DNA of 64,000 nucleotides from Crossaster papposus (Eukaryota > Echinodermata > Asteroidea > Velatida > Solasteridae), in the NCBI GenBank assembly GCA_037893245.1, contig JBAIAA010000398.1:992001-1056000 (forward strand), written 5' to 3'. The notes under the pieces were generated by a model. That model did not search any database, was not told the origin of the DNA, and saw only the letters and a list, made by a program, of their open reading frames with translations. Shown here piece by piece: positions 6,487 through 63,920 of this stretch. How positions within the stretch are numbered: the stretch's first letter is position 1; every line of letters begins with the position of its first letter. A program made the translations under genes and the position numbers.

Positions 6487-6803
6487 GTTTCCACAATTAT
6501 TTTTAAAATACAATATAAAAGCATACATAAGGTTGCTGATCGCGATCCCAAAGTAGCGCAAAGCATGATGGGTAGACAAGGGAGCTGTTTTGTGACTAAA
6601 CCAATTTTTTCGGCCCAGTATGCCTTCTCGGCAAGCTCTTTGTGCTTTTCATCATTTACTACAACACCTCTGGCCCTCAAATACGATGAGAGTTGGTCTT
6701 CTTTTTTAGATTGAGGAATTTTTTTGACGACATATTTTCGAGTGGTTCGCCTATACCCAGCACGATATGAGACCAATGAATTTGTGGCTTGAGCCAGTAG
6801 CAA
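6487..6803 (-). pseudogene. SAP-like coding fragment, copy 1
   Basis: A minus-strand open frame shares nearly all of its sequence with the longer copy at 9470-9960. The recognisable part reads SSYLRARGVVVNDEKHKEL, which resembles the helix-extension-helix of SAP DNA-binding domains (L-x-x-Y-L-x-x-R-G). The frame runs directly into the satellite and its 5' side is cut off near 6803. It looks like the coding relic of a repeated element that travels with the satellite. Family assignment is uncertain. Confidence 0.5.
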
Positions 6804-6810
6804 TGCTACA

Positions 6811-6863
6811 TGCTACAGAAGCAATTAGTCTGGTTGATACGTTGATAAATTGTAGAAGAATGG
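6811..6863 (+). repeat. Block R fragment
   Basis: About 50 bases match the start of block R at 3366 and 10598. They sit between the SAP-like fragment and the spacer that precedes the second array block, which shows that spacer, array, coding fragment and block R were duplicated as a unit. Confidence 0.65.
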
Positions 6864-6903
6864 AGTCTATGAGTCTATGGTAGTGGATGTAGCCATGCTG
6901 CAT

Positions 6904-9466: not shown

Positions 9467-9960
9467 ACAATTATTTTTAAAATACAATATAAAAGCATAC
9501 ATAAGGTTGCTGATCGCGATCCCAAAGTAGCGCAAAGCATGATGGGTAGACAAGGGAGCTGTTTTGTGACTAAACCAATTTTTTCGGCCCAGTATGCCTT
9601 CTCGGCAAGCTCTTTGTGCTTTTCATCATTTACTACAACACCTCTGGCCCTCAAATACGATGAGAGTTGGTCTTCTTTTTTAGATTGAGGAATTTTTTTG
9701 ACGACATATTTTCGAGTGGTTCGCCTATACCCAGCACGATATGAGACCAATGAATTTGTGGCTCGAGCCAGTAGCAATGCTACATGCTCAGGGTTCGATT
9801 TACCCGGGTGCACGCGTGCAGACATATATTTATCAGCCCCAGTGAGAATACGAATAAAGTTGGTTGAATACTTTACCAGATAATGTACGAACGTGTTATT
9901 TATTTCATAAATCCATAATTTATTCCTTGCAGCAGTTTCAGAATCAGTAAACTTGCGCAC
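9421..9960 (-). pseudogene. SAP-like open frame abutting array A
   Basis: This is the longest non-repeat open frame nearby, 179 codons, but it begins without a clear ATG and its last 15-20 codons are satellite. Visible motifs are a basic stretch RAGYRRTTRKYVVKKIP near residues 95-111, then SSYLRARGVVV with a following charged helix, like a SAP domain. Copies occur at 6487-6803 and, inverted and frameshifted, at 55223-55530. I infer an exon of a repeated element or gene family rather than a complete gene. No product is recognised. Confidence 0.5.
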
Positions 9961-18890: not shown

Positions 18891-18893
18891 ATT

Positions 18894-18968
18894 GGCAAGG
18901 CGGGACTCGATTAACCTGCAACCTCCAGAATATCAGACCGGCGCTCTACCAACTGAGCTATTTTGCCC
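18894..18968 (-). other. tRNA-like sequence, full length
   Basis: On the minus strand it has TAGCTCAGTTGGTAGAGC (D-arm and A box), an anticodon-like loop CTGATAT and a modified T-arm ending TCGAGTCCCGCC. Total length is 75 bases. A two-base insertion in the B box and imperfect stems suggest a tRNA-derived repeat rather than a working gene. Confidence 0.6.
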
Positions 18969-19205
18969 TATGTTGGCAGTCTTCCAAATTGTCAGTATCT
19001 TTGTTCGAGGGCACTAGTAATAAGTCATAAACACCAGAATTCCGTGTTGCCAGGAATCACGCCCAATTTTACGATACAACCTGGGAAGCAACATTGTGGG
19101 GATCACTCAATGAGGAGATGACTTTTTATCTTATAATACCCAAATATACCACAAGGGAAACTAATTAGGTAAATTTGCATAGATTTCAAAGTGAACAAAG
19201 AATTT

Positions 19206-19261
19206 GGCAAGGCGGGACTCGAACCTGATACCGACGCTCTACCAACTGAGCTATCTTGCCC
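19206..19261 (-). other. tRNA-like sequence with anticodon arm reduced
   Basis: This is the same family as 18894-18968, with intact A box (TAGCTCAGTTGGTAGAGC) and canonical B box (GGTTCGAGTCC), but about 19 bases shorter in the middle. Both copies share flanks: TTTCAAAG-GAACAAAG on one side and TATGTTGGCAGTCT on the other. They are therefore a local duplication about 310 bp apart. Confidence 0.6.
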
Positions 19262-23059: not shown

Positions 23060-24502
23060 TATGAATCAAGATGAATGATCAGGCCAACTTCAATCTTTCT
23101 ATAACCAACCATTCAGTTCCGGCCTCGCTCAAAACTGACAAAATTATTCCTTTATTTAAAAAAAAAAAAAAACTTGAAATGGGAAACTACCGACCGATTT
23201 CCATTAGTAAGGTGTTAGAGAAAGTAATCTATGAGCAGGTTGAGGAATAATACATTTCCAAAAACATCCTGTATGAATTTCAATCAGGCTTTAGATCGCG
23301 GCATTCCACTGAAACTACTCTGATTCACATCACAGACTTTATTAGATCCGAGTCGAACAGAGGTAATTATGTAGGGGCGATTATATTAGACCTACAAAAA
23401 GCCATTGATTCAGTCAACCACGATATTCTTGTAAACAAATTGGCTTCTATTGGGTTTTCTGACAATACAGTAGATTGGTTTAAATCTTACCTCTCTCACA
23501 GACCACAGGTGGTTGAGATAAACGGTGTTAGATCAAGTGAACTTAATCTAACCTGTGGGGTTCCACAGGGTTCAATTTTGGGACCGCTATTGTTCTTGTC
23601 TTATATTAATGATATGCCATGTTCTGTTAATTGTAAACTACAGCTTTACGCAGATGACGCTATGTTGATAGCTATAGACAAAAACGCTCATAATGTAGAG
23701 CAGAAGCTTTCTGCAGAACTCACTAAGGTCAACAACTGGCTCATAGACAACAGGCTTTCACTCCATTTCACTCCATTTCTCTCAATCCATTTTATTTGCC
23801 AATAAAAGGAACTTGCGCAATAAAAATGTTCTTGACCTTACACATAATGGCATTGACATAAAAAGAGCCAAATCAATCACCTACCTTGGCCTAGAACTAG
23901 AAAAGGATTAAAACAACGGTTTAATTGCACAACACATAATTAAGAAGGCTAACTCAAGACTTAAATTTTTGTTCCGTCATCAAAATTGTCTAAGTAAAAA
24001 GGCAAGGAAAATCTTGTGTTCAGCCTTAATAACTTGCCACTTTGATTGTTGTTGTTCCTGGTATTCCTCATTGTCACAAAAATTTAAAATCAAACTTCAA
24101 ACCTGTCAAAATAAAACAATCCGCTTTATCAACAACCTCCCCACAAGATCTCATATTGGTTATAAAGAATTCCATGAATTAGGATGGTTAGACATTCACC
24201 ATAGAGTAGAGTTTCTTAAAGCAAATCATGTTCATAACATTTTTTATCAAAAATCTCCTAATTATCTCAAACATAATTTCACCTATATTAAAGAAGTTCA
24301 CCACTACCCCACGAGATCTAGTCAGTGTAATTTTTATGTGCCACACACTAAGGGATCAGATACTAATTCTTTTTTCTACACTGGAATTAAATTATGGAAT
24401 TCACTGCCATCCAACCTGAAACAGCATGAAAGGAAAACTTTGTTCAAAACTAAGCTTAAAGGATTCCTTTTTAATAAAATCCAAGCTGTTAAATCTAGCT
24501 AA
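23060..24502 (+). pseudogene. Non-LTR retrotransposon reverse transcriptase, 5'-truncated
   Basis: Translated pieces carry the reverse transcriptase blocks of CR1/L2-type LINEs: NYRPISISKVLEKV, FQSGFRSRHSTETTL, LDLQKAIDSVNHDIL, GVPQGSILGPLLF and YADDAMLI (catalytic DD kept). The C-terminal region includes FRHQNCLSKKARK and FYTGIKLWNSLP. It is broken by a stop after QVEE, a frameshift near 23770 where TTTCACTCCA is duplicated, and a stop after LEKD. The N-terminal endonuclease is absent. It lies within an intron of the minus-strand gene, in the opposite direction. Confidence 0.85.
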
Positions 24503-25175: not shown

Positions 25176-26320
25176 ATGAATCAACGCTCCAAGACGTATC
25201 AGATGTACCCGAAGTACAGCTGTTCAATAATGCATCGTCTCAGTCGTACACACCTTATAGATTGTCCCATCAAGAGGAAGATGTACTCAGCGCTCAATCA
25301 GAAAGCAGACGTATCAGAAGTACCTGAAGTACAGCTGCCTAATTCAGCGTTCAGTAATGCATCGTCTTCGTCGTACCCACCTTCTAGATTGTCCCATCAA
25401 GAGGAAGATGTACTCAGCCCTCAACCAGGATGCAGAATGAATCAACGCTCAAAGACGTATCAGATGTACCCGAAGTACAGCTGCCTAATTCAGCGTTCAG
25501 TAATGCATCGTCTCAGTCGTACACACCTTCTAGATTGTCCCATCAAGAGGAAGATGTACTCAGCACTCAACCAGGATGCAGAATGAATCAATGCTCCAAG
25601 ACGTATCAGATGTACCCGAAGTACAGCTGCCTAATTCAGCGTTCAGTAATGCATCGTCTCAGTCGTACCCACCTTCTAGATTGTCCCATCAAGAGGAAGA
25701 TGTACTGAGCCCTCAACCAAGATGCAGAATGAATCAACGCTCCAAGACGTATCAGATGTACCCGAAGCACAGCTGCCTAATTCAGCATTCAGTAATGCAT
25801 CGTCTCAGTCGTACACACCTTCTAGATTGTCCCATCAAGAGGAAGATGTACTCAGCCCTCAACCAGGATGCAAAATGAATCAACGCTCCCAGACGTATCA
25901 GATGTACCCGAAGCACAGCTGCCTAATTCAGCGTTCAGTAATGCATCGTCTCAGTCGTACCCACCTTCTAGATTGTCCCATCAAGAGGAAGATGTACTGA
26001 GCCCTCAACCAAGATGCAGAATGAATCAACGCTCCAAGACGTATCAGATGTACCCGAAGCACAGCTGCCTAATTCAGCGTTCAGTAATGCATCGTCTCAG
26101 TCGTACAAACCTTCTAGATTGTCCCATCAAGAGGAATATGTACTCAGCCCTCAACCAGGATGCAAAATGAATCAACGCTCCAAGACGTATCAGATGTACC
26201 CGAAGTACAGCTGCCTAATTCAGCGTTCAGTAATGCATCGTCTCAGTCGTACACACCTTCTAGATTGTCCCATCAAGAGGAAGATGTACTCAGCCCTCAA
26301 CCAGGATGCAGAAAGCAGAC
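25176..26320 (+). repeat. 146-bp tandem array, about 8 units
   Basis: Identical starts (ATGAATCAACGCTC) recur at 25430, 25576, 25722, 25868, 26014 and 26160, exactly 146 bp apart. The second unit lacks about 38 bp and the first also lacks a short piece. Divergence between units is a few percent. Because 146 is not a multiple of three, each long frame simply passes from one reading to another at every unit, so coding is unlikely. The array starts 35 bp after the LINE-like tail. Confidence 0.9.
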
Positions 26321-32839: not shown

Positions 32840-33619
32840 GAGTCTAATCATCACCCTGCCATCCTTTGCTGTCCTGTCCAACTTGTCTAGGACACTGCTC
32901 ATCAGATCTTCTCCTACGACTCCTCTATTTCCCCATCAAGCATTCAAATCAACCTACATGTACCATTCTTTGCCATCTTGTCCGACCTGTCTAGGACACT
33001 CCTCATCTTCTCCTGCGACTCCACCGTGTCCCATCAAGCATCCCAATCAACCTAGATGTACCATCATTTGCTGTCTTGTCCAACCTGTCTAGGACACTTC
33101 TCATCCGACTCCAATGTGTCCCCATTAAGCATCCCAATCAACCTAGATGTACCATCATTTGCTGTCTTGTCCAACCTGTCTAGGACACTTCTCATCCGAC
33201 TCCACCGTGTCCCTATCAAGCATCCCAATCAACCTAGATGTACCATCCTTTGCTGTCTTGTCCAACCTGTCTAGGACACTCCCGATCTTCTCATGGGGTC
33301 TGCTCCATTTTATCCCCATCATCAAGCATCCCAATCAACCTACCACCCTTTGCTGTCTTGTCCAACCTGTCTAGGACACTCCCCATCTCCTCCTCTAACT
33401 CCTCCATTTTCCCCCTATCAAGCATCCCAATCAACCTACCATCCTTTGCCATCTTGTCTGACCTGTCTAGGACACTCCTCATCTTCTCCTGCGACTCCAC
33501 CGTGTCCCCATCAAGCATCCCAATTATGTACCATCATTTGCTGTCAATATCCAACCTGTCTAGGATGTGCTTCTCATCCGACTCCATTGTGTCCCCATCA
33601 AGCATCCCAATCAACCTAC
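32840..33619 (-). repeat. Tandem repeat of an exon tail and its splice donor
   Basis: About nine degenerate units of 79-105 bp each contain CTGTCTAGGACA and CCATC-TTTGC-TCTTGTC on the plus strand. On the minus strand the consensus reads VLDRLDKTAKDGRLIGMLDG. The same sequence forms the 3' end of the exon at 33620-33846. Each unit repeats the exon tail, the GATGGTAGGTT donor and the sequence after it. Frames break between units, so most of the array is probably intronic. Confidence 0.8.
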
Positions 33620-33846
33620 CATCCTTCGCTGTCTTGTCCAACCTGTCTAGGACAATCCCCATCTTCTCCTGTGACTCCACCACGTCCCCGTGCTGTATCT
33701 GGTTCATCTTGCTGGTCTGGGCAAGCTGATGCAACTTTTTTGCCAGGAGGGCCTCTAGAGCTGACTTGTCCTTGTGCCGGGCTACGTTGTAGTTTGGCTT
33801 GGACATCAGCTGCTGTTTCACTGACGAAAAGGTGGAGTCCGGGACC
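33620..33846 (-). CDS. Coiled-coil gene, predicted exon 4
   Basis: 227 bp, entered in phase 2 and left in phase 1. It encodes 75 codons plus split codons, starting VPDSTFSSVKQQLMSKPNYN and including LEALLAKKLHQLAQ. The acceptor is CATGTACAG. The donor is placed at GATG|GTAGGT because that phase matches the next exon. Downstream units of the adjoining tandem repeat offer the same donor many times, so the exon could be longer in some transcripts. Confidence 0.75.
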
Positions 33847-36589: not shown

Positions 36590-36775
36590 AGTTCATGCAT
36601 ATGACGTCACACGCACGTCGCATATCACAACAGCACCTCCAATGAGGTCGTTGCGTAATCGCGCTAATGTACTGCTGCACTTTGTTTGACCTCAATAATG
36701 GCCGCTCGGTCCGGTTGCTAGTACAATTAGCGCGTACGCGTAGCGCGCGTGACGTCAATGCAACCCCCTTTTTTT
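36590..36775. mobile_element. CRE-containing MITE, copy 2
   Basis: It starts ATAAAGTTCATGCATATGAC and ends GCGCGTGACGTCAATGCAAC, similar to the element at 42399-42572. It carries TGACGTCA near its right end and again, with a one-base change, near its left end. The middle is diverged. Confidence 0.6.
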
Positions 36776-42378: not shown

Positions 42379-42398
42379 GGGCGATTGCGTGTATTGCC

Positions 42399-42572
42399 TA
42401 TAAAGTTAATGCATGTGATGTCACACGCGCTACGCGTACGCGCTAATCGCACGTACAACCGGGCGGAGCGGTGAGGTCAAACACACTTTGTTTGACCTCA
42501 CCGCTCCGCATGGTTGTACGTACGTGCGATTAGCGCGTACGCGTAGCGCGCGTGACGTCAATGCAACCCCTT
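42399..42572. mobile_element. Palindromic MITE next to the gene start
   Basis: The ends are ATAAAG-TTAATGCATGTGATG and, inverted, ATAAAGGGGTTGCATTGACG. The inner part forms a near-perfect palindrome of about 120 bp (42430-42549) centred near 42490. It contains the exact CRE octamer TGACGTCA at 42553-42560 and TGATGTCA in the left arm. A diverged copy is at 36590-36775. Confidence 0.75.
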
Positions 42573-42894
42573 TATTGGTGTTTTTTTTCCTCTGGGATGC
42601 TTTGCCAACGATTACTAATACCATTTCCTACCTCCAGGCCAGGGGGGGGCGGAAGGGGTCCCAAAAAAGTGCGCCACCAACGTTGAAATGTATCTCATTC
42701 ATTCTTCCACGCTCACGAGTCGAACATCTCATACAGTAAACACGTATAGATCGCTGCCGCGAAGCGCACCATTGAAACACGTACAAATTTGCTCCGTGCA
42801 TTCTCTCCCGAATTCAGTGATTTATGCTACGTCCGCAAAGCCAGATTCGTACAGTACCAACCTCGTTCCCAGGGCTTACTTTATTTCCAACCAC
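42573..42894. other. Upstream region, no feature
   Basis: Contains a G7 tract near 42645 and pyrimidine-rich stretches. Transcription of the minus-strand gene may start here, but no promoter motif can be singled out. Confidence 0.35.
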
Positions 42895-43740
42895 GATTTT
42901 CACTGGGCACACTTAATTTCAGCAAGGGCGTATTCCAGTAAGCCGATCCGTTCCAAACGGCCTCTTAAAGAGGCAACGTTTTCGATAACATCTGAAAAAG
43001 GCGGTATTTGATGTTACTAGTAAAACGCAGTCTTAAAAAAAAAGTGTACCGCACATGTTTTGGAAAATTAACTTTTTTACTTCATAATCGTAATTGTCAC
43101 CTTCCTGGGCACACTTTATTTCAGCAAGGGCGTATTCCAATAAGTCGATCTGTTCCAAAAGGCCTCTTAAAGAGGCTACGTTTTCGATAACATCTGAAAA
43201 AGGCCATATTTTAATGTTTCTAGTAAAACGCCGTCTTAAAAAAACAGTGTACCGCACATGTTTTGGAAAATTAACTTTTTTACTTTATAATCGTCATTGT
43301 TACCTTCCTGGGCACACTTAATTTCAGCAAGGGCGTATTCCAATAAGCCGATCCGTTCCAAACGCCCTCTTAAAGAGGCTACGTTTTCGATAACATCTAA
43401 AAAAGGCGGTATTTGATGTTTCTAGTAAAACGCCGTCTTAAAAAAAAAAGTGTACCGCACATGTTTTGTAAAATTAACTTTTTTACTTCATAATCGTAAT
43501 TGTCACCTTCCTGGGCACACTTAATTTCAGCAAGGGCGTATTCCAGTAAGCCGATCCGTTCCAAACGGCCTCTTAAAGAGGCAACGTTTTCGATAACATC
43601 TGAAAAAGGCGGTATTTGATGTTACTAGTAAAACGCAGTCTTAAAAAAAAAGTGTACCGCACATGTTTTGGAAAATTAACTTTTTTACTTTATAATCGTC
43701 ATTGTTACCTTCCTGGGCACACTTAATTTCAGCAAGGGCG
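42895..43740 (-). repeat. 203-bp exon-like tandem array, minus block
   Basis: About four units in minus orientation. Three contain an intact 93-bp core between AG and GT: 43101-43193, 43304-43396 and 43507-43599. The core encodes, in frame phase 1-1, a 31-residue helical peptide such as VIENVASLRGLLEQI followed by LAEIKCAQE. The outer units are truncated. The block meets the plus block head-on at 43740. Confidence 0.85.
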
Positions 43741-46170
43741 TCAAATACCGCTTTTTTTTAGATGTTATCGAAAACGTAGCCTCTTTAAGAGGCCTTTTGG
43801 AACAGATCGGCTTATTGGAATACGCCCTTGCTGAAATTAAGTGTGCCCAGGAAGGTGACAATTACGATTATGAAGTAAAAAAGTTAATTTTACAAAACAT
43901 GTGCGGTACACTTTTTTTTTAAGACGGCGTTTTAATAGAAACATTAAATACCGCCTTTTTCAGAACTGATGTTATCGAAAACGTTGCTTCTTTAAGAGGC
44001 CGTTTGGAACGGATCGGCTTACTGGAATACGCCCTTTCTGAAATTAAGTGTGCCCAGGAAGGTAAAAATGACGATTATAAAGTAAAAAAGTAAATTTTCC
44101 AAAACATGTGCGGTACACTTTTTTTTTAAGACGGCGTTTTACTAGAAACATTAATGGCCTTTTTCAGATGTTATCGAAAACGTAGCCTCTTTAAGAGGCC
44201 TTTTGGAACAGATCGGCTTATTGGAATACGCCCTTGCTGAAATTAAGTGTGCCCAGGAAGGTGACAATTACGATTATGTAGTAAAAAAGTTAATTTTACA
44301 AAACATGTGCGGTACACTTTTTTTTTAAGACGGCATTTTAATAGAAACATTAAATACCGCCTTTTTCAGAACTGATGTTATCGAAAACGTTGCTTCTTTA
44401 AGAGGCCGTTTGGAACGGATCGGCTTATTGGAATACGCCCTTGCTGAAATTAAGTGTGCCCAGGAAGGTGACAATTACGATTATGGAGTAAAAAAGTTAA
44501 TTTTCCAAAACATGTGCGGTACACTTTTTTTTTAAGACGGCATTTTACAAAAAACATCAAATACCGCATTTTTCAGATCTTATCGAAAACGTTGCTTCTT
44601 TAATGAGGCCGTTTGGAACAGATCGGCTTACTGGAATACGCCCTTGCTGAAATTAAGTGTGCCCAGGAAGGTAACAATGACGATTATAAAGTAAAAAAGT
44701 TAATTTTCCAAAACATGTGCGGTACACTGTTTTTTTAAGACGGCGTTTTACTAGAAACATTAAAATATGGCCTTTTTCAGATGTTATCGAAAACGTAGCC
44801 TCTTTAAGAGGCCTTTGGGAACAGATCGGCTTATTGGAATACGCCCTTGCTGAAATAAAGTGTGCCCAGGAAGGTGACAATTACGATTATGAAGTAAAAA
44901 AGTTAATTTTCCAAAACATGTGCGGTACACTTTTTTTTTAAGACTGCGTTTTACTAGTAACATCAAATACCGCCTTTTTCAGATGTTATCGAAAACGTTG
45001 CCTCTTTAAGAGGCCGTTTGGAACGGATCGGCTTACTGGAATACGCCCTTGCTGAAATTAAGTGTGCCCAGGAAGGTGACAATTACGATTATGAAGTAAA
45101 AAAGTTAATTTTACAAAACATGTGCGGTACACTTTTTTTTTAAGACGGCGTTTTACTAGAAACATCAAATACCGCCTTTTTCAGATGTTATCGAAAACGT
45201 TGCCTCTTTAAGAGGGCGTTTGGAACGGATCGGCTTATTGGAATACGCCCTTGCTGAAATTAAGTGTGCCCAGGAAGGTAACAATGACGATTATAAAGTA
45301 AAAAAGTAAATTTTCCAAAACATGTGCGGTACACTGTTTTTTTAAGACGGCGTTTTACTAGAAACATTAAAATATGGCCTTTTTCAGATGTTATCGAAAA
45401 CGTAGCCTCTTTAAGAGGCCTTTTGGAACAGATCGACTTATTGGAATACGCCCTTGCTGAAATAAAGTGTGCCCAGGAAGGTAACAATGACGATTATAAA
45501 GTAAAAAAGTTAATTTTCTAAAACATGTGCGGTACACTTTTTTTTTAAGACGGCGTTTTACTAGAAACATTAAAATATGGCCTTTTTCAGATGTTATCGA
45601 AAACGTAGCCTCTTTAAGAGGCCTTTTGGAACAGATCGGCTTATTGGAATACGCCCTTGCTGAAATTAAGTGTGCCCAGGAAGGTGACAATTACGATTAT
45701 GAAGTAAAAAAGTTAATTTTACAAAACATGTGCGGTACACTTTTTTTTTAAGACGGCGTTTTAATAGAAACATTAAATACCGCCTTTTTCAGAACTGATG
45801 TTATCGAAAACGTTGCTTCTTTAAGAGGCCGTTTGGAACGGATCGGCTTATTGGAATACGCCCTTGCTGAAATTAAGTGTGCCCAGGAAGGTGACAATTA
45901 CGATTATGGAGTAAAAACGTTAATTTTACAAAACATGTGCGGTACACTTTTTTTTTAAGACGGCATTTTACAAAAAACATCAAATACCGCATTTTTCAGA
46001 TCTTATCGAAAACGTTGCTTCTTTAAGAGGCCGTTTGGAACAGATCGGCTTATTGGAATACGCCCTTGCTGAAATTAAGTGTGCCCAGTAAGGTGATAAT
46101 TAGGATAATGAAGTAAAAATAAAAAAATTACAAAACATGTGCGGTACACCATTTTATTTAAGACGGCATT
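43741..46170 (+). repeat. 203-bp exon-like tandem array, plus block
   Basis: About twelve units. Intact cores start after TTTTTCAG or TTTTTTAG at 43762, 44168, 44781, 44983, 45185, 45388 and 45591. Each is 93 bp, a multiple of three, entered and left in phase 1, with donor AAG|GTGACA or AAG|GTAACA. Three units carry a five-base AACTG insertion at the acceptor, and others have base or frame changes. It could be a series of duplicated exons or a satellite born from an exon; similarity outside the core is just as high, which favours the satellite view. Confidence 0.85.
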
Positions 46171-46447
46171 TTATTGATTCGGAAGTAATATGTTGCGAGA
46201 AACGCTTAAAAATGAGGTTCTCTGGAATCGACTAATATAATGGCAATTTTGGAGGGAAAAAAGTGTTAAGAATACTATTTATAGTCTTGCTGATAGTTAT
46301 TGTTGAAGTTAATCTTTAATTGGGGATTAATTTCCGTCCTATTTTCGAAAATTCGTTGATCTAATCTGTAAATCTAGTTTCAAATCAGCACCTCCTTTTG
46401 TCGCATGGATTCTAAATTTTTATGAACGGCTGCGGCCAACCGAAGCG

Positions 46448-50906: not shown

Positions 50907-50953
50907 CATCGACGGCACTGGCCGTCGTGGCCGCCGTGTAATTCGAGGCCTGG
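50907..50953. mobile_element. Right end of the interrupted hAT-like MITE
   Basis: GGCCGCCGTGTAATTCGAGG followed by CCTG is the terminal sequence of the 40113-40830 family. It directly abuts the start of the 1.5-kb duplicated segment. Confidence 0.7.
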
Positions 50954-51000
50954 CATGTCGGGGAATCAGATTGTCATTTTATTAACTACTCTTTTTTTAG

Positions 51001-51112
51001 GCTTGCTTGAGCTGCACCAATGAAGCTTGTTGACGCTACAATGAAGAGCATGCTGTGAAACACTTCCAGGAGACCAAACACCCATTGAGGTCAATGACAG
51101 ATATGTGTTTTG
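51001..51112 (+). pseudogene. USP44/49-like ZnF-UBP exon, copy 1, broken
   Basis: After a TTTTTTAG acceptor the frame reads ACLSCTN, then after two codons a TGA where the family has the glycine of C-G-R-Y, then RYNEEHAVKHFQETKHP. Vertebrate USP44 has the same layout. This copy also lacks seven bases relative to copy 2, just before IEVNDRYVF, which shifts the frame. The donor TTTTG|GTGAG is kept. The zinc-finger would bind ubiquitin tails; this copy cannot encode it. Confidence 0.75.
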
Positions 51113-51510
51113 GTGAGTTAGGGTGCCATACTCTACAAACAATTGGTTGGTCACCACTCAAAATCGATAATTACACATTTGATGAGAAACTGCCTTGTTG
51201 AATTTACTAGAAACCATAACTATATCCTGGCAAATTCAAACACCATATGGCAAACTGTACACACAAACTGTTGGACTTTGATTCTGGAGGTATGCCTAAC
51301 CCAGTGTAAAAGACTGTCAGCTTAGGGGTCCAGTACCCATCCTAACGGATTTCAACATAACCTGGTGTTGAAGTTTGACTGGATGGGGATTGGGGTGTGG
51401 TACACAAGGTATTGGTGTAAGAATTCATTTTACAGTATATAAAATATCTCACATACGCTGTTGACATGTTTGTTGATAATTTCAATTGTAAATGTGAATG
51501 TTTATTGTAG

Positions 51511-51681
51511 TTATGAATGCGATGACTATATTCTGAATGACAATGCACCGGGTGATTTGAAACTGCTGCGTACAACCTTGGATGCGATCACCAAACAATT
51601 GCTGTATGAAAGTCAGACGAGGAGTGGTCGTCGTCTCTTGAGGGCGCTGTCCGTTGACACTGGAGAACAAATCAAACACAG
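51511..51681 (+). pseudogene. USP44/49-like second exon, copy 1
   Basis: 171 bp entered in phase 2 from the previous exon, forming [13 protein letters not shown], then [13 protein letters not shown]. The same order ([22 protein letters not shown]) occurs in USP44 and USP49. The acceptor TTATTGTAG and donor CAG|GTATTT are intact and the frame is fully open, but the preceding exon is broken. Confidence 0.8.
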
Positions 51682-51696
51682 GTATTTGTGAATTAT

Positions 51697-52032
51697 GCTG
51701 CGTTCCAATCGTGTCGTGTTTATCGTGTTCACGAGTTAACGAGTTGTATAATGGCGTTCTAATCGCCTGGTAACTCGTGTTCACCAGTGGTGAACTCGAG
51801 GTGTGTTTTTTTTTCTCCATGTTCACGACTTCATAACCAATGAAATACTCGCGCATGCGTGTTGGTTCACGTACGAGTTCTTGCTCGATAAAGAATGTCC
51901 TTACCGCACGACTAACTCGTCTGTGCGCAAGCGTCTTGGTGAGTAGCGTTTGGAATGCAACCCACTCGTGAAAATGGAGAAATTCACGGTGAACACGATA
52001 AATACGACGCGATTGGAAGTTTGGAACGCAGC
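51697..52032. mobile_element. MITE with GCTGCGTTCCAA ends, copy 1
   Basis: TIRs of about 40 bp (GCTGCGTTCCAATCGTGTCG at the left) begin 16 bp after the exon end. The interior is rich in ACTCGT and GAACACGA. It is duplicated at 54099-54434 as part of the 1.5-kb duplication. Confidence 0.7.
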
Positions 52033-52047
52033 ATGTATCCCCGGCTA

Positions 52048-52396
52048 GCGAATTGTTTTTTCACCGTAGGTGGGTGAGTCAAACTTCATGAATTATTCAG
52101 TAGTTGTATTGATCACTGTACAACACTTAGGTTCTAGGTCTCTTTTCCCCTTTATATTAAAAATTCTCCAAAGATTTCAATTTGACTAGAAAAAAAGTGA
52201 CCTACAGCAGGATTCGAACCAGGGATCTTAAATTCATAGCCCATCTTGAAAGCGATTTTAACTTGTTAACTATAACAACAATGCTGTGACGTCATGTTTT
52301 ATTCTGATGAATAAACATAACTTCTTATCCAAACTACTGAATAATTCAAAAAGTTTGACTCGCCCACCTGTACCGTACCTACGGAAAAAAATTTGC
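52048..52396 (-). mobile_element. tRNA-like TIR element, copy with internal deletion
   Basis: The direct flank CCCCGGCTA is present on both sides (52039-52047, 52397-52405), a 9-bp TSD. The ends are GCGAATT. The tRNA-like interior keeps the B box, but about 45-60 bases including the A box are missing compared with 54450-54843. Confidence 0.8.
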
Positions 52397-52458
52397 CCCC
52401 GGCTAGGCTCCGTGCAACTGACCTCTAGTGGCCGTTAAATCCAAGATTTGCATCCCAT

Positions 52459-52777
52459 GTGTTTCATCTTGAATCTTATCTGATATATTATCAAGGAATT
52501 CAAGTGCTTGATCAGGCCCAAAACGAGTCGCCATGTCGCTTTTTCATCGCAAAAAAACCCCAAAAAAAAACAAAACGTTCAACCCTATTTTTCTACATTT
52601 TTTTCAATAGCGCCCCCTATTGAATATCACATCAAACGAAAGCTCAACAATTGCTCTAAACAACCGAATGAGGGCGGTATATAAGGGGACCGTAGTTTTT
52701 TAGTTATGACCACTTATCAAAGTCCAAATTGAACGTGTTTTTGGTGGTCGCTAGCGACCGCAGTGTGCACCAAAGGG
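52459..52777 (-). mobile_element. piggyBac 5' end, cut at the duplication border
   Basis: The right edge is TTAA (52778-52781). Reading inward on the minus strand it starts CCCTTTGGTGCACACTGCGG, the kind of end seen in piggyBac elements, and passes a TTATATA box-like motif near 52680. The start codon at 52534 follows. Everything beyond about 52463 is lost. Confidence 0.65.
52463..52534 (-). pseudogene. Transposase N-terminus (piggyBac-like), 24 codons
   Basis: ATG opens MATRFGPDQALEFLDNI followed by SDKIQDE. Many piggyBac transposases start with a similar F-x-x-x-Q-A-L-x-x-L segment followed by acidic residues. The frame then runs into unrelated duplicated sequence. Identification rests on the position next to the TTAA end and on this short motif. 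Confidence 0.45.
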
Positions 52778-52781
52778 TTAA

Positions 52782-53199
52782 AAAAGTATTTTCATGTAAA
52801 AGAAAAATATTTTCCCCTTCTGTTTTTGTAAAAAAGTCAATTTGGATTTGTCCACCCCTACGAACATATTTTGGCCCTATCCCAAAACAAGAATTGCCTT
52901 GTTCCGACTGATTTTGCTTGGTCGAATCACATATATATTGACTTGACTATAAACTGTATACTGTGAGCCAACTCACTCGAATTAATGACTGAATGACCTC
53001 GAGTCACTTATGACAATGACATTGTTAAGGAAGTATTTTATACACAGTGGCTGTCATTACAGCAGTCGGTGATCTGGGTACCTGACTACTCGACCTCACA
53101 TTAACAATAATACTTGGATATCGCTCTTGGAACCAGACTGGTTGATAGTCAGGTTACAAGGGTGAAAGGTCAAGAGTATTGTGAATGTCAGGATAATCA
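52782..53199. other. Spacer between duplicates, no feature
   Basis: AT-rich sequence with repeated ACTCGA-like motifs near 52975-53000. No gene is seen. Confidence 0.4.
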
Positions 53200-53348
53200 T
53201 GTCCGGGAATCAGATCCTCATTTTATTAACTACTCTTTTCTTTTTCTAGGCTTGCTTGAGTTGCATTAATGAGCTTGTCTCTGTCAGGGAATCAGATTGC
53301 CAATTTACTAACTACTCTTTTTTAGGCTTGCTTGAGCTGCACCGATGA
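53200..53348 (+). repeat. Two extra copies of a splice acceptor and exon head
   Basis: Two units of about 70-78 bp each contain GGGAATCAGAT, a pyrimidine tract, an AG and GCTTGCTTGAGYTGCA. They are the same as the intron end and first bases of the USP-like exon at 53396. Each adds a usable acceptor upstream of the real one. Confidence 0.8.
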
Positions 53349-53395
53349 GCATGTCGGGGAATCAGATTGTCATTTTATTAACTACTCTTTTTTAG

Positions 53396-53514
53396 GCTTG
53401 CTTGAGCTGCACCAATGTAGCTTGTTGACGCTACAATGAAGAGCATGCTGTGAAACACTTCCAGGAGACCAAACACCCAGTAGCCATTGAGGTCAATGAC
53501 AGATATGTGTTTTG
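53396..53514 (+). pseudogene. USP44/49-like ZnF-UBP exon, copy 2, with in-frame TGA
   Basis: 119 bp, 39 codons plus two bases, ending with the donor TTTTG|GTGAG. It reads ACLSCTNVAC, stop, RYNEEHAVKHFQETKHPVAI. The TGA sits exactly where a GGA glycine codon is expected in A-C-G-R-Y. Apart from that codon the exon is fully consistent with the family, and it lacks the seven-base deletion of copy 1. The shared stop shows it predates the duplication. Confidence 0.8.
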
Positions 53515-53912
53515 GTGAGTAAGGGTGCCATACTCTACAAACAATTGGTTGGTCACCACTCAAAATCGATAATTACACATTTGATGTGAAACTGCCTTGT
53601 TAAATTTACTAGAAACCATAACTATATCCTGGCAAATTCAAACACCATATGGCAAACTGTACACACAAACTGTTGGACTTTGATTCTGGAGGTATGCCTA
53701 ACCCAGTGTAAAAGACTGTCAGCTTAGGGGTCCAGTACCCATCCTAACGGATTTCAACAAAACCTGGTGTTGAAGTTTGACTGGATGGGGATTGGGGTGT
53801 GGTACACAAGGTATTGGTGTAAGAATTCATTTTACAGTATATAAAATATCTCACATACGCTGTTGACATGTTTGTTGATAATTTCAATTGTAAATGTGAA
53901 TGTTTATTGTAG

Positions 53913-54083
53913 TTATGAATGCGATGACTATATTCTGAATGACAATGCACTGGGTGATTTGAAACTGCTGCGTACCACCTTGGATGCGATCACCAAACAA
54001 TTGCTGTATGAAAGTCAGACAAGGAGTGGTCGTCGTCTCTTGAGGGCGCTGTCCGTTGACACTGGAGAACAAATCAAACACAG
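53913..54083 (+). pseudogene. USP44/49-like second exon, copy 2
   Basis: Differs from copy 1 at only three of 171 positions: one changes proline to leucine in DNALGDLKL, and two are silent. The splice sites and frame are intact. No further USP exons (catalytic Cys or His boxes) could be found before the satellite array at 55693. Confidence 0.8.
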
Positions 54084-54098
54084 GTATTTGTGAATTAT

Positions 54099-54434
54099 GC
54101 TGCGTTCCAATCGCGTCGTGTTTATCGTGTTTACGAGTTCACGAGTCGTATAATGGCGTTCTAATCGCCTGGTAACTCGTGTTCACCAGTGGTGAACTCG
54201 AGGTGGGTTTTTTGTTCTCCATGTTCACGACTTCATAACCAATGAAATACTCGCGCATGCGTGTTGGTTCACGTACGAGTTCTTGCTCGATAAAGAATGT
54301 CCTTACCGCACGACTAACTCGTCTGTGCGCAAGCGTCTTGGTGAGTAGCGTTTGGAATGCAACCCACTTGTAAAAATGGAGAAATTCACGGTGAACACGA
54401 TAAATACGACGCGATTGGAAGTTTGGAACGCAGC
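54099..54434. mobile_element. MITE with GCTGCGTTCCAA ends, copy 2
   Basis: Duplicate of 51697-52032, with a handful of substitutions. Confidence 0.7.
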
Positions 54435-54449
54435 ATGTATCCCCGGCTA

Positions 54450-54843
54450 GCGAATTGTTTTTTCACCGTAGGTGGGTGAGTCAAACTTCATGAATTATTC
54501 AGTAGTTGTATTGATCACTGTACAACACTTAGGTTCTAGGTCTCTTTTCCCCTTTAAATTACAAATTATCCAAAGATTTCAATTTGACTAGAAAAAAAGT
54601 GACCTACAGCAGGATTCGAACCAGGGATCTTAAATTCATAGCCCATCCCACTATCCACTACACTACGTATAGCAGTTCGACAACAGCTGTTCTTTAAAGC
54701 GATTTTAACTTGTTAACTATAACAACAATGCTGTGACGTCATGTTTTATTCTGATGAATAAACATAACTTCTTATCCAAACTACTGAATAATTCAAAAAG
54801 TTTGACTCGCCCACCTGTACCGTACCTACGGAAAAAAATTCGC
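54450..54843 (-). mobile_element. tRNA-like TIR element, full copy
   Basis: The 9-bp TSD CCCCGGCTA lies at 54441-54449 and 54844-54852. The inner tRNA-like region on the minus strand (about 54604-54672) keeps ACGTAGTGTAGTGGATAGTG and GGTTCGAATCC. The 12447-12838 copy shares the interior, but its outer TIRs differ in sequence near the ends. Confidence 0.82.
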
Positions 54844-54852
54844 CCCCGGCTA

Positions 54853-55222
54853 GGCTCCGTGCAACTGACCTCTAGTGGCCGTTAAATCCAAGATTTGCAT
54901 CCCATGTGTTTTTTGTTGTCAAATTCTAATGTCGCGAAGCCTCCGAGGAAAGTTGATTTCCGAAGTGAATGTTTTCTCTAAATTTTCGCTGTACTAAGTA
55001 CAACTCAGTAGTAGGTAAGTTAAACCCCGCCACTCACTTCATATTTGAATACTAGGGTAAACACCCAAACAAATCTGCAAATAAACCTGGCCGACATTCT
55101 GACAAACAAACCTGATACTGAATGTGCGCAAACCTATGGAGCCGAGTACCAGTTTTTTATCGATCGGTTGATTTCAACAGGTGGCGCCCTGTGCTACGGC
55201 GTACTTAGTAAAGAAAGGGAGC
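54853..55222 (+). other. Open frame of unknown origin
   Basis: A plus-strand frame without ATG runs from about 55045 and includes LADILTNKPDTECAQTYGAE. It continues into the SAP-like fragment in a different frame. I do not recognise it; TACTAG at 55050-55055 could be an acceptor. Confidence 0.3.
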
Positions 55223-55692: not shown

Positions 55693-58600
55693 TGGAAAGA
55701 CACGCCGACCGTTGAGACACGCCGACCGTTGAGACACGCCGACCGTTGAGACACGCCGACCGTTGAGACACGCCGACCGTTGAGACACGCCGACCGTTGA
55801 GACACGCTTACCGTTGAGACACGCCGACCGTTGAGACAGGCCGACCGTTGAGACAGGCCGACCGTTGAGACAGGCCAACCGTTGGGACACGCCGACCATT
55901 GAGACAAGCCGACCGTTGAGACAACTCGCCGTTGAGTGGGTTGAGTGGGTTGAGTGGGTTGAGTAGGGTGGGTAGGGTGGGTAGGGTGAGTAGGTGTAGA
56001 GAAGGGTGGGAAGGGTGAGTAGGTGTAGGGGAGGGTGAGTAGGTGTAGGGAAGGGTGAGTAGGTGTAGGGAAGGGTGAGTAGGTGTAGGGAAGGGTGAGT
56101 AGGATGAGACAGGCCGACCGTTGAGACGACGCCGACCGTTGAGACACGCCGACCGTTGAGGTACGCCGACTGTTGAGACACGCCGACCGTTGAGACACGC
56201 CGACCGTTGAGACATGTGTCTCAACGGTCGACAGGTCTCGACACATCAAAGTGTCTCATTACGTCAACCCACGTCGACCCACGTCTTGACACGTCGACCC
56301 ACGTCGAGACACGCCGACCGTAGGGTGAGTAGATGTAGGGAAGGGTGGATAGGTGTAGGGAAGGGTGAGTAGGTGTAGGGAAGGGTGAGTAGGTGTAGGG
56401 AAGGGTGAGTAGGGTGAGACAGGCCGACCGTTGAGACGAAGCCGACCGTTGAGACACGCCGACCGTTGAGGTACGCCGACTGTTGAGACACGCCGACCGT
56501 TGAGACACGCCGACCGTTGAGACACGTGTCTCAACGGTCGACAGGTCTCGACACATCAAAGTGTCTCATTACGTCAACCCACGTCGACCCACGTCTTGAC
56601 ACGTCGACCCACGTCGAGACACGCCGACCGTAGGGTGAGTAGGTGTAGGGAAGGGTGGATAGGTGTAGGGAAGGGTGAGTAGGTGTAGGGAAGGGTGAGT
56701 AGGGTGAGACAGGCCGACCGTTGAGACGACGCCGACCGTTGAGACACGCCGACCGTTGAGGTACGCCGACCGTTGAGACACGCCGACCGTTGAGACACGC
56801 CGACCGTTGAGACACGTGTCTCAACGGTCGACAGGTCTCGACACATCAAAGTGTCTCATTACGTCAACCCACGTCGACCCACGTCTTGACACGTCGACCC
56901 ACGTCGAGACACGCCGACCGTAGGGTGAGTAGGTGTAGGGAAGGGTGAGTAGGTGTAGGGAAGGGTGAGTAGGTGTAGGGAAGGGTGAGTAGGTGTAGGG
57001 AAGGGTGAGTAGGTGTAGGGAAGGGTGAGTAGGTGTAGGGAAGGGTGAGTAGGTGTAGGGAAGGGTGAGTAGGGTGAGACAGGCCGACCGTTGAGACGAC
57101 GCCGACCGTTGAGACACGCCGACCGTCGAGGTACGCCGACCGTTGAGACACGCCGACCGTTGAGACACGCCGACCGTTGAGACACGTGTCTCAATTGTCG
57201 ACAGGTCTCGACACATCAAAGTGTCTCATTACGTCAACCCACGTCGACCCACGTCTTGACACGTCGACCCACGTCGAGACACGCCGACCGTAGGGTGAGT
57301 AGGTGTAGGGAAGGGTGGGTAGGTGTAGGGAAGGGTGAGTAGGTGTAGGAAAGGGTGAGTAGGTGTAGGGAAGGGTGAGTAGGTGTAGGGAAGTGTGAGT
57401 AGTGTGAGACAGGCCGACCGTTAAGACGACGCCGACCGTTGAGACACATCAAGGTCTCGACACATCAAGTAGGGTGAGTAGGTGTAGGGAAGTGTGAGTA
57501 GGGTGAGACAGGCCAACCGTTGAGACACGCCGACCGTTGAGGTACGCCGACCGTTGAGACACGCCAACCGTTGAGACACGCCGACCGTTGAGACACGCCG
57601 ACCGTTGAGACACGCCGACCGTTGAGACACGCCGACCGTTGAGACACGCCGACCGTTGTTATTCAAAATTCGGTCTCAGAATTCATTGCTCACAACTGAG
57701 CCAACTCGACCGTAGGTCCGATAAATGGAAAGACACGCCGACCGTTGAGACACGCCGACCGTTGAGACACGCTTACCGTTGAGACACGCCGACCGTTGAG
57801 ACAGGCCGACCGTTGAGACAGGCCGACCGTTGAGACAGGCCGACCGTTGAGACAGGCCGACCATTGGGACACGCCGACCATTGGGACACGCCGACCGTTG
57901 AGACAAGCCGACCGTTGAGACAAGCCGGCCGTTGAGTGGGTTGAGTGGGTTGAGTAGGGTGGGTAGGGTGAGTAGGTGTAGGGAAGGGTGGGAAGGGTGA
58001 GTAGGTGTAGGGGAGGGTGAGTAGGTGTAGGGAAGGGTGAGTAGGTGTAGGGAAGGGTGAGTAGGTGTAGGGAAGGGTGAGTAGGATGAGACAGGCCGAC
58101 CGTTGAGACGACGCCGACCGTTGAGACACGCCGACTGTTGAGGTACGTCGACCGTTGAGACACGCCGACCGTTGAGACACGTGTTTCAATGGTCGACAGG
58201 TCTCGACACATCAAAGTGTCTCTTTACGTCGACCCACGTCGACCCACGTCTTGACACGTCGACCCACTTCGAGACACGCCGACCGTAGGGTGGGTAGGTG
58301 TAGGGAAGGGTGAGTAGGTGTAGCGAAGAATGAGTAGGTGTGGGGAAGGGTGAGTAGGTGTAGGGAAGGGTGAGTAGTTGTAGGGAAGGGTGAGTAGGGT
58401 GAGGCAGGCCGACCGTTGAGACGACGCCGACCGTTGAGACACGCCGACCGTTGAGGTACGCCGACCGTTGAGACACGCCGACCGTTGAGACACGCCGACC
58501 GTTGAGACACGTGTCTCAACGGTCGACAGGTCTCGACACATCAAAGTGTCTCATTACGTCAACCCAAGTCGACCCACGTCTTGACACGTCGACCCACGTC

Positions 58601-61600
58601 GAGACACGGTGACCGTAGGTTGAGTAGGTGTAGGGAAGGGTGGATAGGTGTAGGGAAGGGTGAGTAGGTGTAGGGAAGGGTGAGTAGGTGTAGGGAAGAG
58701 TGAGTAGGTGTAGGGAAGGGTGAGTAGGGTGAGACAGGCCGACCGTTGAGACGACGCCGACCGTTGAGACACACCGACCGTTGAGGTACGCCGACCGTTG
58801 AGACACGCCGACCGTTGAGACACGCCGACCGTTGAGACACGTGTCTCAATGGTCGACAGGTCTCGACACATCAAAGTGTCTCTTTACGTCGACCCACGTC
58901 GTCCCACGTCTTGACACGTCGACCCACGTCGAGACACGCCGACCGTAGGGTGAGTAGGTGTAGGGAAGGGTGGATAGGTGTAGGGAAGGGTGAGTAGGTG
59001 TAGGGAAGGGTGAGTAGGTGTAGGGAAGGGTGAGTAGGTGTAGGGAAGGGTGAGTAGGTGTAGGGAAGGGTGAGTAGGGTGAGACAGGCCGACCGTTGAG
59101 ACGACGCTGACCGTTGAGACACGCCGACCGTTGAGGTACGCCGACCGTTGAGACACGCCGACCGTTGAGACACGCCGACCGTTGAGACACGTGTCTCAAC
59201 GGTCGACAGGTCTCGACACATCAAAGTGTCTTATTACGTCAACCCACGTCGACCCACGTCTTGACACGTCGACCCACGTCGAGACACGCCGACCGTAGGG
59301 TGAGTAGGTGTAGGGAAGGGTGGGTAGGTGTAGGGAAGGGTGAGTAGGTGTGGGAAAGGGTGAGTAGGTGTAGGGAAGGGTGAGTAGGTGTAGGGAAGTG
59401 TGAGTAGGGTGAGACGGGCCGACCGTTGAGACGACGCCGACCGTTGAGACACGCTGACCGTTGAGGTACGCCGACCGTTGAGACAGGCCGACCGTTGAGA
59501 CAGGCCGACCATTGGGACACGCCGACCATTGGGACACGCCGACCGTTGAGACAAGCCGACCGTTGAGACAAGCCGGCCGTTGAGTGGGTTGAGTGGGTTG
59601 AGTAGGGTGGGTAGGGTGAGTAGGTGTAGGGAAGGGTGGGAAGGGTGAGTAGGTGTAGGGGAGGGTGAGTAGGTGTAGGGAAGGGTGAGTAGGTGTAGGG
59701 AAGGGTGAGTAGGTGTAGGGAAGGGTGAGTAGGATGAGACAGGCCGACCGTTGAGACGACGCCGACCGTTGAGACACGCCGACTGTTGAGGTACGTCGAC
59801 CGTTGAGACACGCCGACCGTTGAGACACGCCGACCGTTGAGACACGTGTTTCAATGGTCGACAGGTCTCGACACATCAAAGTGTCTCTTTACGTCGACCC
59901 ACGTCGACCCACGTCTTGACACGTCGACCCACTTCGAGACACGCCGACCGTAGGGTGAGTAGGTGTAGGGAAGGGTGAGTAGGTGTAGCGAAGAATGAGT
60001 AGGTGTGGGGAAGGGTGAGTAGGTGTAGGGAAGGGTGAGTAGTTGTAGGGAAGGGTGAGTAGGGTGAGGCAGGCCGACCGTTGAGACGACGCCGACCGTT
60101 GAGACACGCCGACCGTTGAGGTACGCCGACCGTTGAGACACGCCGACCGTTGAGACACGCCGACCGTTGAGACACGTGTCTCAACGGTCGACAGGTCTCG
60201 ACACATCAAAGTGTCTCATTACGTCAACCCAAGTCGACCCACGTCTTGACACGTCGACCCACGTCGAGACACGGTGACCGTAGGTTGAGTAGGTGTAGGG
60301 AAGGGTGGATAGGTGTAGGGAAGGGTGAGTAGGTGTAGGGAAGGGTGAGTAGGTGTAGGGAAGAGTGAGTAGGTGTAGGGAAGGGTGAGTAGGGTGAGAC
60401 AGGCCGACCGTTAAGACGACGCCGACCGTTGAGACACACCGACCGTTGAGACACGCCGACCGTTGAGACACGCCGACCGTTGAGACACGCCGACCGTTGA
60501 GACACGTGTCTCAATGGTCGACAGGTCTCGACACATCAAAGTGTCTCTTTACGTCGACCCACGTCGACCCACGTCTTGACACGTCGACCCACGTCGAGAC
60601 ACGCCGACCGTAGGGTGAGTAGGTGTAGGGAAGGGTGGATAGGTGTAGGGAAGGGTGAGTAGGTGTAGGGAAGGGTGAGTAGGTGTAGGGAAGGGTGAGT
60701 AGGTGTAGGGAAGGGTGAGTAGGTGTAGGGAAGGGTGAGTAGGGTGAGACAGGCCGACCGTTGAGACGACGCCGACCGTTGAGACACGCCGACCGTTGAG
60801 GTACGCCGACCGTTGAGACACGCCGACCGTTGAGACACGCCGACCGTTGAGACACGTGTCTCAACGGTCGACAGGTCTCGACACATCAAAGTGTCTTATT
60901 ACGTCAACCCACGTCGACCCACGTCTTGACACGTCGACCCACGTCGAGACACGCCGACCGTAGGGTGAGTAGGTGTAGGGAAGGGTGGGTAGGTGTAGGG
61001 AAGGGTGAGTAGGTGTGGGAAAGGGTGAGTAGGTGTAGGGAAGGGTGAGTAGGTGTAGGGAAGTGTGAGTAGGGTGAGACGGGCCGACCGTTGAGACGAC
61101 GCCGACCGTTGAGACACGCTGACCGTTGAGGTACGCCGACCGTTGAGACACGCCGACCGTTGAGACACGCCGACCGTTGAGACATGTGTCTCAACGGTCG
61201 ACAGGTCTCGACACATCAAAGTGTCTCATTACGTCAACCCACGTCGACCCACGTCTTGACACGTCGACCCACGTCGAGACACGCCGACCGTAGGGTGAGT
61301 AGGTGTAGGGAAGGGTGGGTAGGTGTAGGGAAGGGTGGGTAGGTGTAGGAAAGGGTGAGTAGGTGTAGGGAAGGGTGAGTAGGTGTAGGGAAGTGTGAGT
61401 AGGGTGAGACAGGCCGACCGTTAAGACGACGCCGACTGTTGAGACACATCAAGGTCTCGACACATCAAGTAGGGTGAGTAGGTGTAGGGAAGTGTGAGTA
61501 GGGTGAGACAGGCCAACCGTTGAGACACGCCGACCGTTGAGGTACGCCGACCGTTGAGACACGCCAACCGTTGAGACACGCCGACCGTTGAGACACGCCG

Positions 61601-63920
61601 ACCGTTGTTATTCAAAATTCGGTCTCAGAATTCATTGCTCACAACTGAGCCAACTCGACCGTAGGTCCGATAAATGGAAAGACACGCCGACCGTTGAGAC
61701 ACGCCGACCGTTGAGACACGCCGACCGTTGAGACACGCCGACCGTTGAGACACGCTTACCGTTGAGACACGCCGACCGTTGAGACAGGCCGACCGTTGAG
61801 ACAGGCCGACCGTTGAGACAGGCCGACCGTTGAGACAGGCCGACCATTGGGACACGCCGACCGTTGAGACAAGCCGACCGTTGAGACAACTCGCCGTTGA
61901 GTGGGTTGAGTGGGTTGAGTAGGGTGGGTAGGGTGAGTAGGTGTAGGGAAGGGTGGGAAGGGTGAGTAGGTGTAGGGGAGGGTGAGTAGGTGTAGGGAAG
62001 GGTGAGTAGGTGTAGGGAAGGGTGAGTAGGTGTAGGGAAGGGTGAGTAGGATGAGACAGGCCGACCGTTGAGACGACGCCGACCGTTGAGACACGCCGAC
62101 TGTTGAGGTACGCCGACCGTTGAGACACGCCGACCGTTGAGACACGCCGACCGTTGAGACACGTGTTTCAATGGTCGACAGGTCTCGACACATCAAAGTG
62201 TCTCTTTACGTCGACCCACGTCGACCCACGTCTTGACACGTCGACCCACTTCGAGACACGCCGACCGTAGGGTGAGTAGGTGTAGGGAAGGGTGAGTAGG
62301 TGTAGCGAAGAATGAGTAGGTGTGGGGAAGGGTGAGTAGGTGTAGGGAAGGGTGAGTAGTTGTAGGGAAGGGTGAGTAGGGTGAGGCAGGCCGACCGTTG
62401 AGACGACGCCGACCGTTGAGACACGCCGACCGTTGAGGTACGCCGACCGTTGAGACACGCCGACCGTTGAGACACGCCGACCGTTGAGACACGTGTCTCA
62501 ACGGTCGACAGGTCTCGACACATCAAAGTGTCTCATTACGTCAACCCAAGTCGACCCACGTCTTGACACGTCGACCCACGTCGAGACACGCTGACCGTAG
62601 GTTGAGTAGGTGTAGGGAAGGGTGGATAGGTGTAGGGAAGGGTGAGTAGGTGTAGGGAAGGGTGAGTAGGTGTAGGGAAGGGTGAGTAGGTGTAGGGAAG
62701 GGTAAGTAGGGTGAGACAGGCCGACCATTGAGACGACGCCGACCGTTGAGACACGCCGACCGTTGAGGTACGCCGACCGTTGAGACACGCCGACCGTTGA
62801 GACACGCCGACCGTTGAGACACGTGTCTCAATGGTCGACAGGTCTCGACACATCAAAGTGTCTCTTTACGTCGACCCACGTCGACCCACGTCTTGACACG
62901 TCGACCCACGTCGAGACACGCCGACCGTAGGGTGAGTAGGTGTAGGGAAGGGTGGATAGGTGTAGGGAAGGGTGAGTAGGTGTAGGGAAGGGTGAGTAGG
63001 TGTAGGGAAGGGTGAGTAGGTGTAGGGAAGGGTGAGTAGGTGTAGGGAAGGGTGAGTAGGTGTAGGGAAGGGTGAGTAGGGTGAGACAGGCCGACCGTTG
63101 AGACGACGCTGACCGTTGAGACACGCCGACCGTTGAGGTACGCCGACCGTTGAGACACGCCGACCGTTGAGACACGCCGACCGTTGAGACACGTGTCTCA
63201 ACGGTCGACAGGTCTCGACACATCAAAGTGTCTTATTACGTCAACCCACGTCGACCCACGTCGAGACACGCCGACCGTAGGGTGAGTAGGTGTAGGGAAG
63301 GGTGGGTAGGTGTAGGGAAGGGTGAGTAGGTGTAGGAAAGGGTGAGTAGGTGTAGGGAAGGGTGAGTAGGTGTAGGGAAGTGTGAGTAGGGTGAGACGAC
63401 GCCGACCGTTGAGACACGCCGACCGTTGAGGTACGCCGACCGTTGAGACACGCCGACCGTTGAGACACGCCGACCGTTGAGACATGTGTCTCAACGGTCG
63501 ACAGGTCTCGACACATCAAAGTGTCTCATTACGTCAACCCACGTCGACCCACGTCTTGACACGTCGACCCACGTCGAGACACGCCGACCGTAGGGTGAGT
63601 AGGTGTAGGGAAGGGTGGGTAGGTGTAGGGAAGGGTGGGTAGGTGTAGGAAAGGGTGAGTAGGTGTAGGGTAGGGTGAGTAGGTGTAGGGAAGGGTGAGA
63701 CACGTCGACCCACGTTGAGACACGCCGACCCACGTTGAGACACGCCGACCCACGTTGAGACACGCCGACCCACGTTGAGACACGCCGACCCACGTTGAGA
63801 CACGCCGACCCACGTTGAGACACGCCAACCCACGTTGAGACACGCTGACCCACGTTGAGACACGCCGACCCACGTTGAGACAGGCCGACCGTTGAGACAC
63901 GCCGACTGTTGAGACACGTG
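55693..63920 (-). repeat. Satellite array B
   Basis: This is the reverse-orientation counterpart of array A: ACACGCCGACCGTTGAG (17 bp), AGGTGTAGGGAAGGGTGAGT (20 bp) and ACACGCCGACCCACGTTGAG (20 bp, only at 63700-63890). The CACATCAAAGTG marker occurs about 18 times, mostly 300-370 bp apart, each next to the 30-bp palindrome or a near copy (for example 56511-56540). Non-satellite segments of about 75 bp beginning TTATTCAAAATTCGGTCTCA recur at 57659 and 61611, and first appear at 55627 at the array edge, marking larger repeats of about 2.0 and 4.0 kb. Confidence 0.93.

Follow-up and report, generated by a model that had tools for sequence, protein, structure and literature searches.

A small local satellite with exon-like cores in Crossaster papposus, probably seeded by an exon-bearing gene segment

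A stretch of 64,000 nucleotides from Crossaster papposus (assembly GCA_037893245.1, contig JBAIAA010000398.1, positions 992,001 to 1,056,000 of the forward strand; hereafter the window) contains a tandem array whose units carry a core that looks like an exon. This raises the question whether the array is a working set of repeated exons or a satellite and, if it is a satellite, from what kind of sequence it arose. The first-pass annotation described about 16 tandem units of about 203 bp in two inverted blocks, and this layout was recovered by two programs. TRF reported a period-203 array with 4.1 copies on the minus strand at 42903-43741 and 12.0 copies on the plus strand at 43741-46173, and a BLAST search of the window with a single unit returned 5 minus-strand and 12 plus-strand segments, the orientation turning at 43741. 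Beyond the array, no further copies of the 203-bp unit were found in the window (BLAST, E 1e-3). The constant length of the head-to-tail units, as given by TRF, is that of satellite or tandem repeat DNA. The features of the array are as follows.

42903..43741, minus strand: block of about 4.1 units, named from left to right M05, M04, M03, M02 and M01; its left end falls in the middle of a core
43741..43741, no strand: head-to-head turn between the blocks, from BLAST
43741..46173, plus strand: block of 12 units, P01 to P12, of which P12 is the diverged edge unit
44983..45075, plus strand: representative intact 93-bp core (unit P07), 31 residues, phase 1-1, with AG before and GT after
44961..45140, plus strand: longest open frame of P07, 60 codons, continuing beyond the GT; its length is usual for shuffled units

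An intact core, that is a 93-bp open core in phase 1-1 with a pyrimidine tract and AG before it and AG/GT at its end, was present in 10 of the 17 segments (P01, P03, P06-P10 and M02-M04), in agreement with the ten intact cores annotated earlier. Five other segments have an insertion or a stop in the core: P02, P04 and P11 share a 5-bp insertion immediately after the AG, P05 has a 1-bp insertion and P12 a stop. The last two, M01 and M05, are truncated. One explanation of this arrangement is a working repeat-exon gene, in which one block would be transcribed at a time and the intact cores spliced in varying number to yield 31-residue helical repeats. The symmetric phase and the number of intact cores argue for such a gene, as do donor scores of 77-80, 77 being reached by about 3% of 4912 GT sites (11.5-42.6 and 46.4-55 kb; score table entered by hand). 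However, only 7 of the 12 cores of the plus block (P01, P03 and P06-P10) are intact, with the defective ones interspersed among them, and the two blocks of near-identical units are opposed.

A different explanation is that the satellite was derived from random non-coding DNA and that its exon-like core arose by chance. Of 5000 dinucleotide-shuffled versions of the unit, 96 contained a comparable symmetric open core when either strand was allowed (39 of 5000 for one strand), and so did 8 of 197 window pieces 203 bp in length (11.5-42.6 and 46.4-55 kb). As shuffles and window pieces thus yield such cores at 2-4%, the layout alone is only mildly unusual. The chance origin is also favoured by the 61-codon open run of the unit, which is ordinary (equalled in 2456 of 5000 shuffles), by the G at donor position +5, which occurs in none of the 16 readable donors and whose absence also speaks against present use, and by the lack of any Pfam family above its cut-off for the core. 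On the other hand, when the TRF rows with a period of at least 60 were inspected (the rows overlap), such a core was found in 3 of the 29, all three of which are this array, and in 0 of the other 26.

Variation among the units was compared between the core and the rest of the unit. In all 17 segments 12 of the 93 core sites are variable versus 32 of the 109 sites outside (Fisher p 0.006). The number for the flank may be too high, because some units appear to be loosely aligned by MAFFT immediately before the core. Without the edge unit P12 the numbers are 11 and 24 (p 0.064), and for the ten units with intact cores 8 and 20 (p 0.065). When a circular 93-bp mask was moved around the unit, 12 of 202 placements had as few variable sites as the core and 5 of 202 as low a diversity for all segments; without P12 these numbers were 15 and 10 of 202, and for the ten intact units 10 and 10 of 202. 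The statement in the first-pass annotation that the flanks are as conserved as the cores is thus not borne out, since the flanks vary more. The reduced variability of the core could reflect past or present constraint, and is marginal (p ~0.06) when the edge unit is left out.

Lower variability of the core than of the rest of the unit would be in line with a working repeat-exon gene, but the kind of variation is not. The variable core sites are distributed over codon positions 1, 2 and 3 as 4, 4 and 4 in all segments, as 3, 4 and 4 without P12, and as 1, 4 and 3 in the ten intact units. Five of the 12 core variants are synonymous and seven change the peptide, including one stop (insertions not counted), and the synonymous excess in the cores is not significant (p 0.10 or 0.27, with only 12 informative sites). 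Purifying selection on the core peptide, which would be expected for a repeated-exon gene, is not seen in these numbers. Two observations had been named beforehand as speaking against splicing, the absence of spliced reads and equal substitution at the three codon positions; the analysis covered the second of these, and the variation was found to be equal. In addition, Pfam revealed no partner exon from a host gene between 22 and 52 kb, although exons that lack a Pfam domain would escape such a search. The proposed cassette from which any number of exons could be spliced is thus unsupported, and we regard a working repeat-exon gene as highly improbable. If it were active, unequal exchange in the satellite would directly alter the length of a protein, linking copy number to length, but the evidence is against it. 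That 7 of the 17 cores are broken or cut, that codon positions vary evenly and that no significant synonymous excess exists were counted in favour of a satellite that is not translated.

The composition of the core bears on the origin of such a satellite. The GC content is 0.452 in the core versus 0.321 outside, and is as high in 23 of the 202 mask placements. The core peptide is protein-like in composition, being matched by 5 of 5000 random open frames with the background of the whole unit and by 21 of 5000 with its own background, whereas the in-frame flanks are unremarkable (1886 of 5000 for the 7 residues upstream and 1430 of 5000 for the 22 residues downstream). The remaining open frames of the unit of at least 25 residues have composition scores below zero. 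The helix propensity of the core peptide was equalled in 24 of 20000 random frames, and its GC excess of codon position 1 over 2 in 577 of 20000 shuffles. The amino-acid frequencies, the helix propensities and the donor-site table were all entered by hand. For calibration, 1 of 320 background open windows scored as high as the core, and a true reverse-transcriptase frame in the window matched the core score in only 1 of 33 windows (mean z 0.49). Another array (33007-33652) reached a best composition score of 2.55 versus 2.49 for the core. The composition test is weak, as a true coding stretch rarely scores as high.

Because the core is protein-like and helix-prone while its in-frame flanks are not, an origin from a real exon seems likely. 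Low variability, GC content, composition and helix propensity together give moderate support to this origin, and their convergence on about one 93-bp stretch argues against chance. We consider the chance origin rather unlikely, yet a serious competitor. The exon origin is probable on the basis of composition and site layout; a single-copy ancestor or source gene for the unit was not found in the window. Also counted against a satellite seeded by an exon were the extension of the open frame beyond the GT in most units and the weak keratin-type structure match, described below, that crosses the GT. The presence of other arrays of coding-like DNA in the window was counted in its favour. One of these, a second coding-like array of the window, is a tandem repeat of about 91-96 bp at 32859-33689 on the minus strand. 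It follows an open coding-like stretch and reads like a coding repeat of about 32 residues in decay. At 25307-26313 on the plus strand lie about 6.9 units of 146 bp, which are open with a frame that shifts from unit to unit, again with a coding-like stretch before them.

Homology searches were carried out with the core, the longer frame and the surroundings of the array. A single core matched no Pfam family. With a tripled core peptide 11 families were listed up to E 10, each below its curated cut-off, the best being DUF2250 (E 0.00078, 20 bits versus a cut-off of 24.4); these matches were set aside because tripling repeats one weak match. Among solved structures, 7 of the 8 hits of the tripled peptide were ankyrin-type designs, with a best E of 0.014 that is inflated by the tripling. 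Of two tripled shuffled cores used as controls, one gave no hit up to E 1 and the other unrelated hits at E 0.067 and 0.21, so that the ankyrin-design match stands out only a little. A typed ankyrin consensus was scored at or above its value for the core by 14 of 3000 shuffles; for TPR, ARM and HEAT consensuses the numbers were 1992, 1376 and 978 of 3000. An ankyrin repeat was rejected, as the 11 Pfam families that the tripled peptide drew up to E 10 include no Ank family and the single core matched no family at all.

The longer open frame matched no Pfam family, and its best match was keratin 14 (E 0.33; 0.21), with 10 of 27 residues identical. The score of this match was reached by 0 of 3000 shuffles, a count that is not independent because the target had been chosen as the best database hit. 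An intermediate filament rod was likewise rejected, keratin 14 being matched only at E 0.21-0.33 and three 54-residue versions of the frame giving no Pfam match. Scans of viral and genome contigs, of plasmids and of phages gave no relatives, which is unsurprising if this is animal nuclear DNA.

Pfam was also run on all six frames of two stretches, 37-52 kb with E up to 0.1 and 22-37 kb with E up to 0.01. The only matches above cut-off were a zf-UBP fragment of USP type and a reverse transcriptase; DIX, which lies inside the array (E 0.031), and YqiM (E 0.039) fell below it. The zf-UBP fragment belongs to a decayed gene piece with a USP49-like zf-UBP exon (Pfam E 7.4e-6; solved USP49 chain E 7.8e-9), which is present in two copies, 95% identical, at 50953-52464 and 53349-54911. 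The first copy has a stop in the zinc finger, and the start of the exon with its pyrimidine tract is itself tandemly repeated at 53198-53425. The reverse-transcriptase frames (RVT_1, E 1.7e-27) are split between two open frames at 23251-24502 on the plus strand and are probably part of a broken retrotransposon.

The relationships between the units tell something of how the array grew. Pairwise differences are as low as 2 sites between P04 and P11, 0 between P07 and M04, 2 between P06 and M02 and 3 between P08 and M03, while P12 is the most diverged with 17-31 differences from the other full-length units. Variants are common to several units, as is typical of homogenisation in satellite DNA. 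Shared variants and a most diverged edge unit are as expected from amplification and homogenisation. The 472-nt arms between the two blocks are 99% complementary, and owing to this near-identity the left block would be either a recent inverted copy of interior units or a fold-back of the assembly.

The explanation that we prefer, and that we think probable without being certain, is that of a small local satellite that is not translated and that probably goes back to a gene segment of about 203 bp with an exon in it. The alternative offered in the first-pass annotation, a satellite made from an exon, is in fact the reading that fits best, as protein-like composition, higher GC content and lower variability all lie on or near the AG...GT core. 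The source segment would probably have comprised a single exon, 93 bp long and in phase 1-1, from the gene of a helical protein, together with parts of the two introns beside it. This segment would have been duplicated in tandem, after which unequal exchange or gene conversion, as suggested by the pattern of unit identities, may have spread and mixed the unit variants. An interior stretch would have been copied in inverted orientation to the left, an event to which the near-identity of the blocks points. The units would now be untranslated and their exon-like appearance an inherited relic. If the exon origin is true, this is a satellite at an early stage, in which exon boundaries can still be read, beside other arrays of coding-like DNA, and it would throw light on the way in which satellites are seeded by pieces of genes.

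The array might also be the tandem part of a mobile element, for instance repeats from the interior of a non-autonomous DNA transposon, or a ribozyme array of the retrozyme-like kind. Dispersed repeats abound in the window and a foldback element, related to 36678-36773, is situated just left of the array at 42397-42578, both of which would suit this explanation. However, when the 2.9 kb on the left side were compared with the 3.3 kb on the right, only 7 inverted matches were listed, 10-14 bp long (E 1.9-7.3), and none had an arm at both edges; the strongest flank match is a 27-bp direct repeat at about 2.1 and 1.2 kb from the edges. No convincing mobile-element ends were therefore seen in this flank comparison. 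A string CTGATG...GAAA in P02, P04 and P11 resembles what we take to be a hammerhead core. A ribozyme satellite, hammerhead or other, was nevertheless rejected, since no ribozyme family came up in Rfam for 42.8-46.3 kb at E values up to 5; the only Rfam matches there were purD (E 0.31) and a histone stem-loop (E 2.7), both below their gathering scores. Folding of the unit RNA is unremarkable (z -1.59 for the plus strand, 9 of 200 shuffles folding as well, and -0.54 for the minus strand). We consider an origin as part of a mobile element very unlikely.

Other repeats of the window include two large GC-rich compound satellites at 4088-9426 and 55698-63824, with 17- and 20-bp motifs and units of about 255-370 bp. 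The motifs at the opposite ends of the window are mutual reverse complements, and the stretches 6488-6751, 9462-9725 and 55500-55234 are related to one another. On the minus strand two mutually related tRNA-like Rfam matches occur at 18893-18967 and 19205-19260 (36.7 and 29.1 bits), which ARAGORN does not call and which are perhaps tRNA-derived repeats.

Genes with tandemly duplicated symmetric exons are a known kind. The array is like them in its cores of constant length and phase 1-1, with AG and GT, in 10 of the 17 segments, and unlike them in that no host gene was recognised, broken cores lie between intact ones, the blocks are opposite and codon positions vary evenly. Tandem arrays inside retrotransposons can expand to satellites (PMC7004042). 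With such arrays the present one has in common that it is short, local and a possible satellite seed; it differs in that no enclosing retrotransposon was found, the sole RVT_1 match in 22-52 kb being near 23.2 kb. In a review (PMC5615363) it is stated that any sequence could in theory give rise to a satellite, and the seeds named in the portion consulted are rDNA spacers and transposable elements, with no mention of exon seeds in that portion. No description of this array was recognised among the matches listed in the literature on satellites and exons. The closest likeness is to minor local satellite DNA with mixed, partly higher-order variants, with which the array shares its head-to-tail units of about 203 bp, its shared variants, its diverged edge unit and its inverted block. 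From such satellites it is set apart by its small copy number (about 16) and by its probable seed, an exon with intron flanks.
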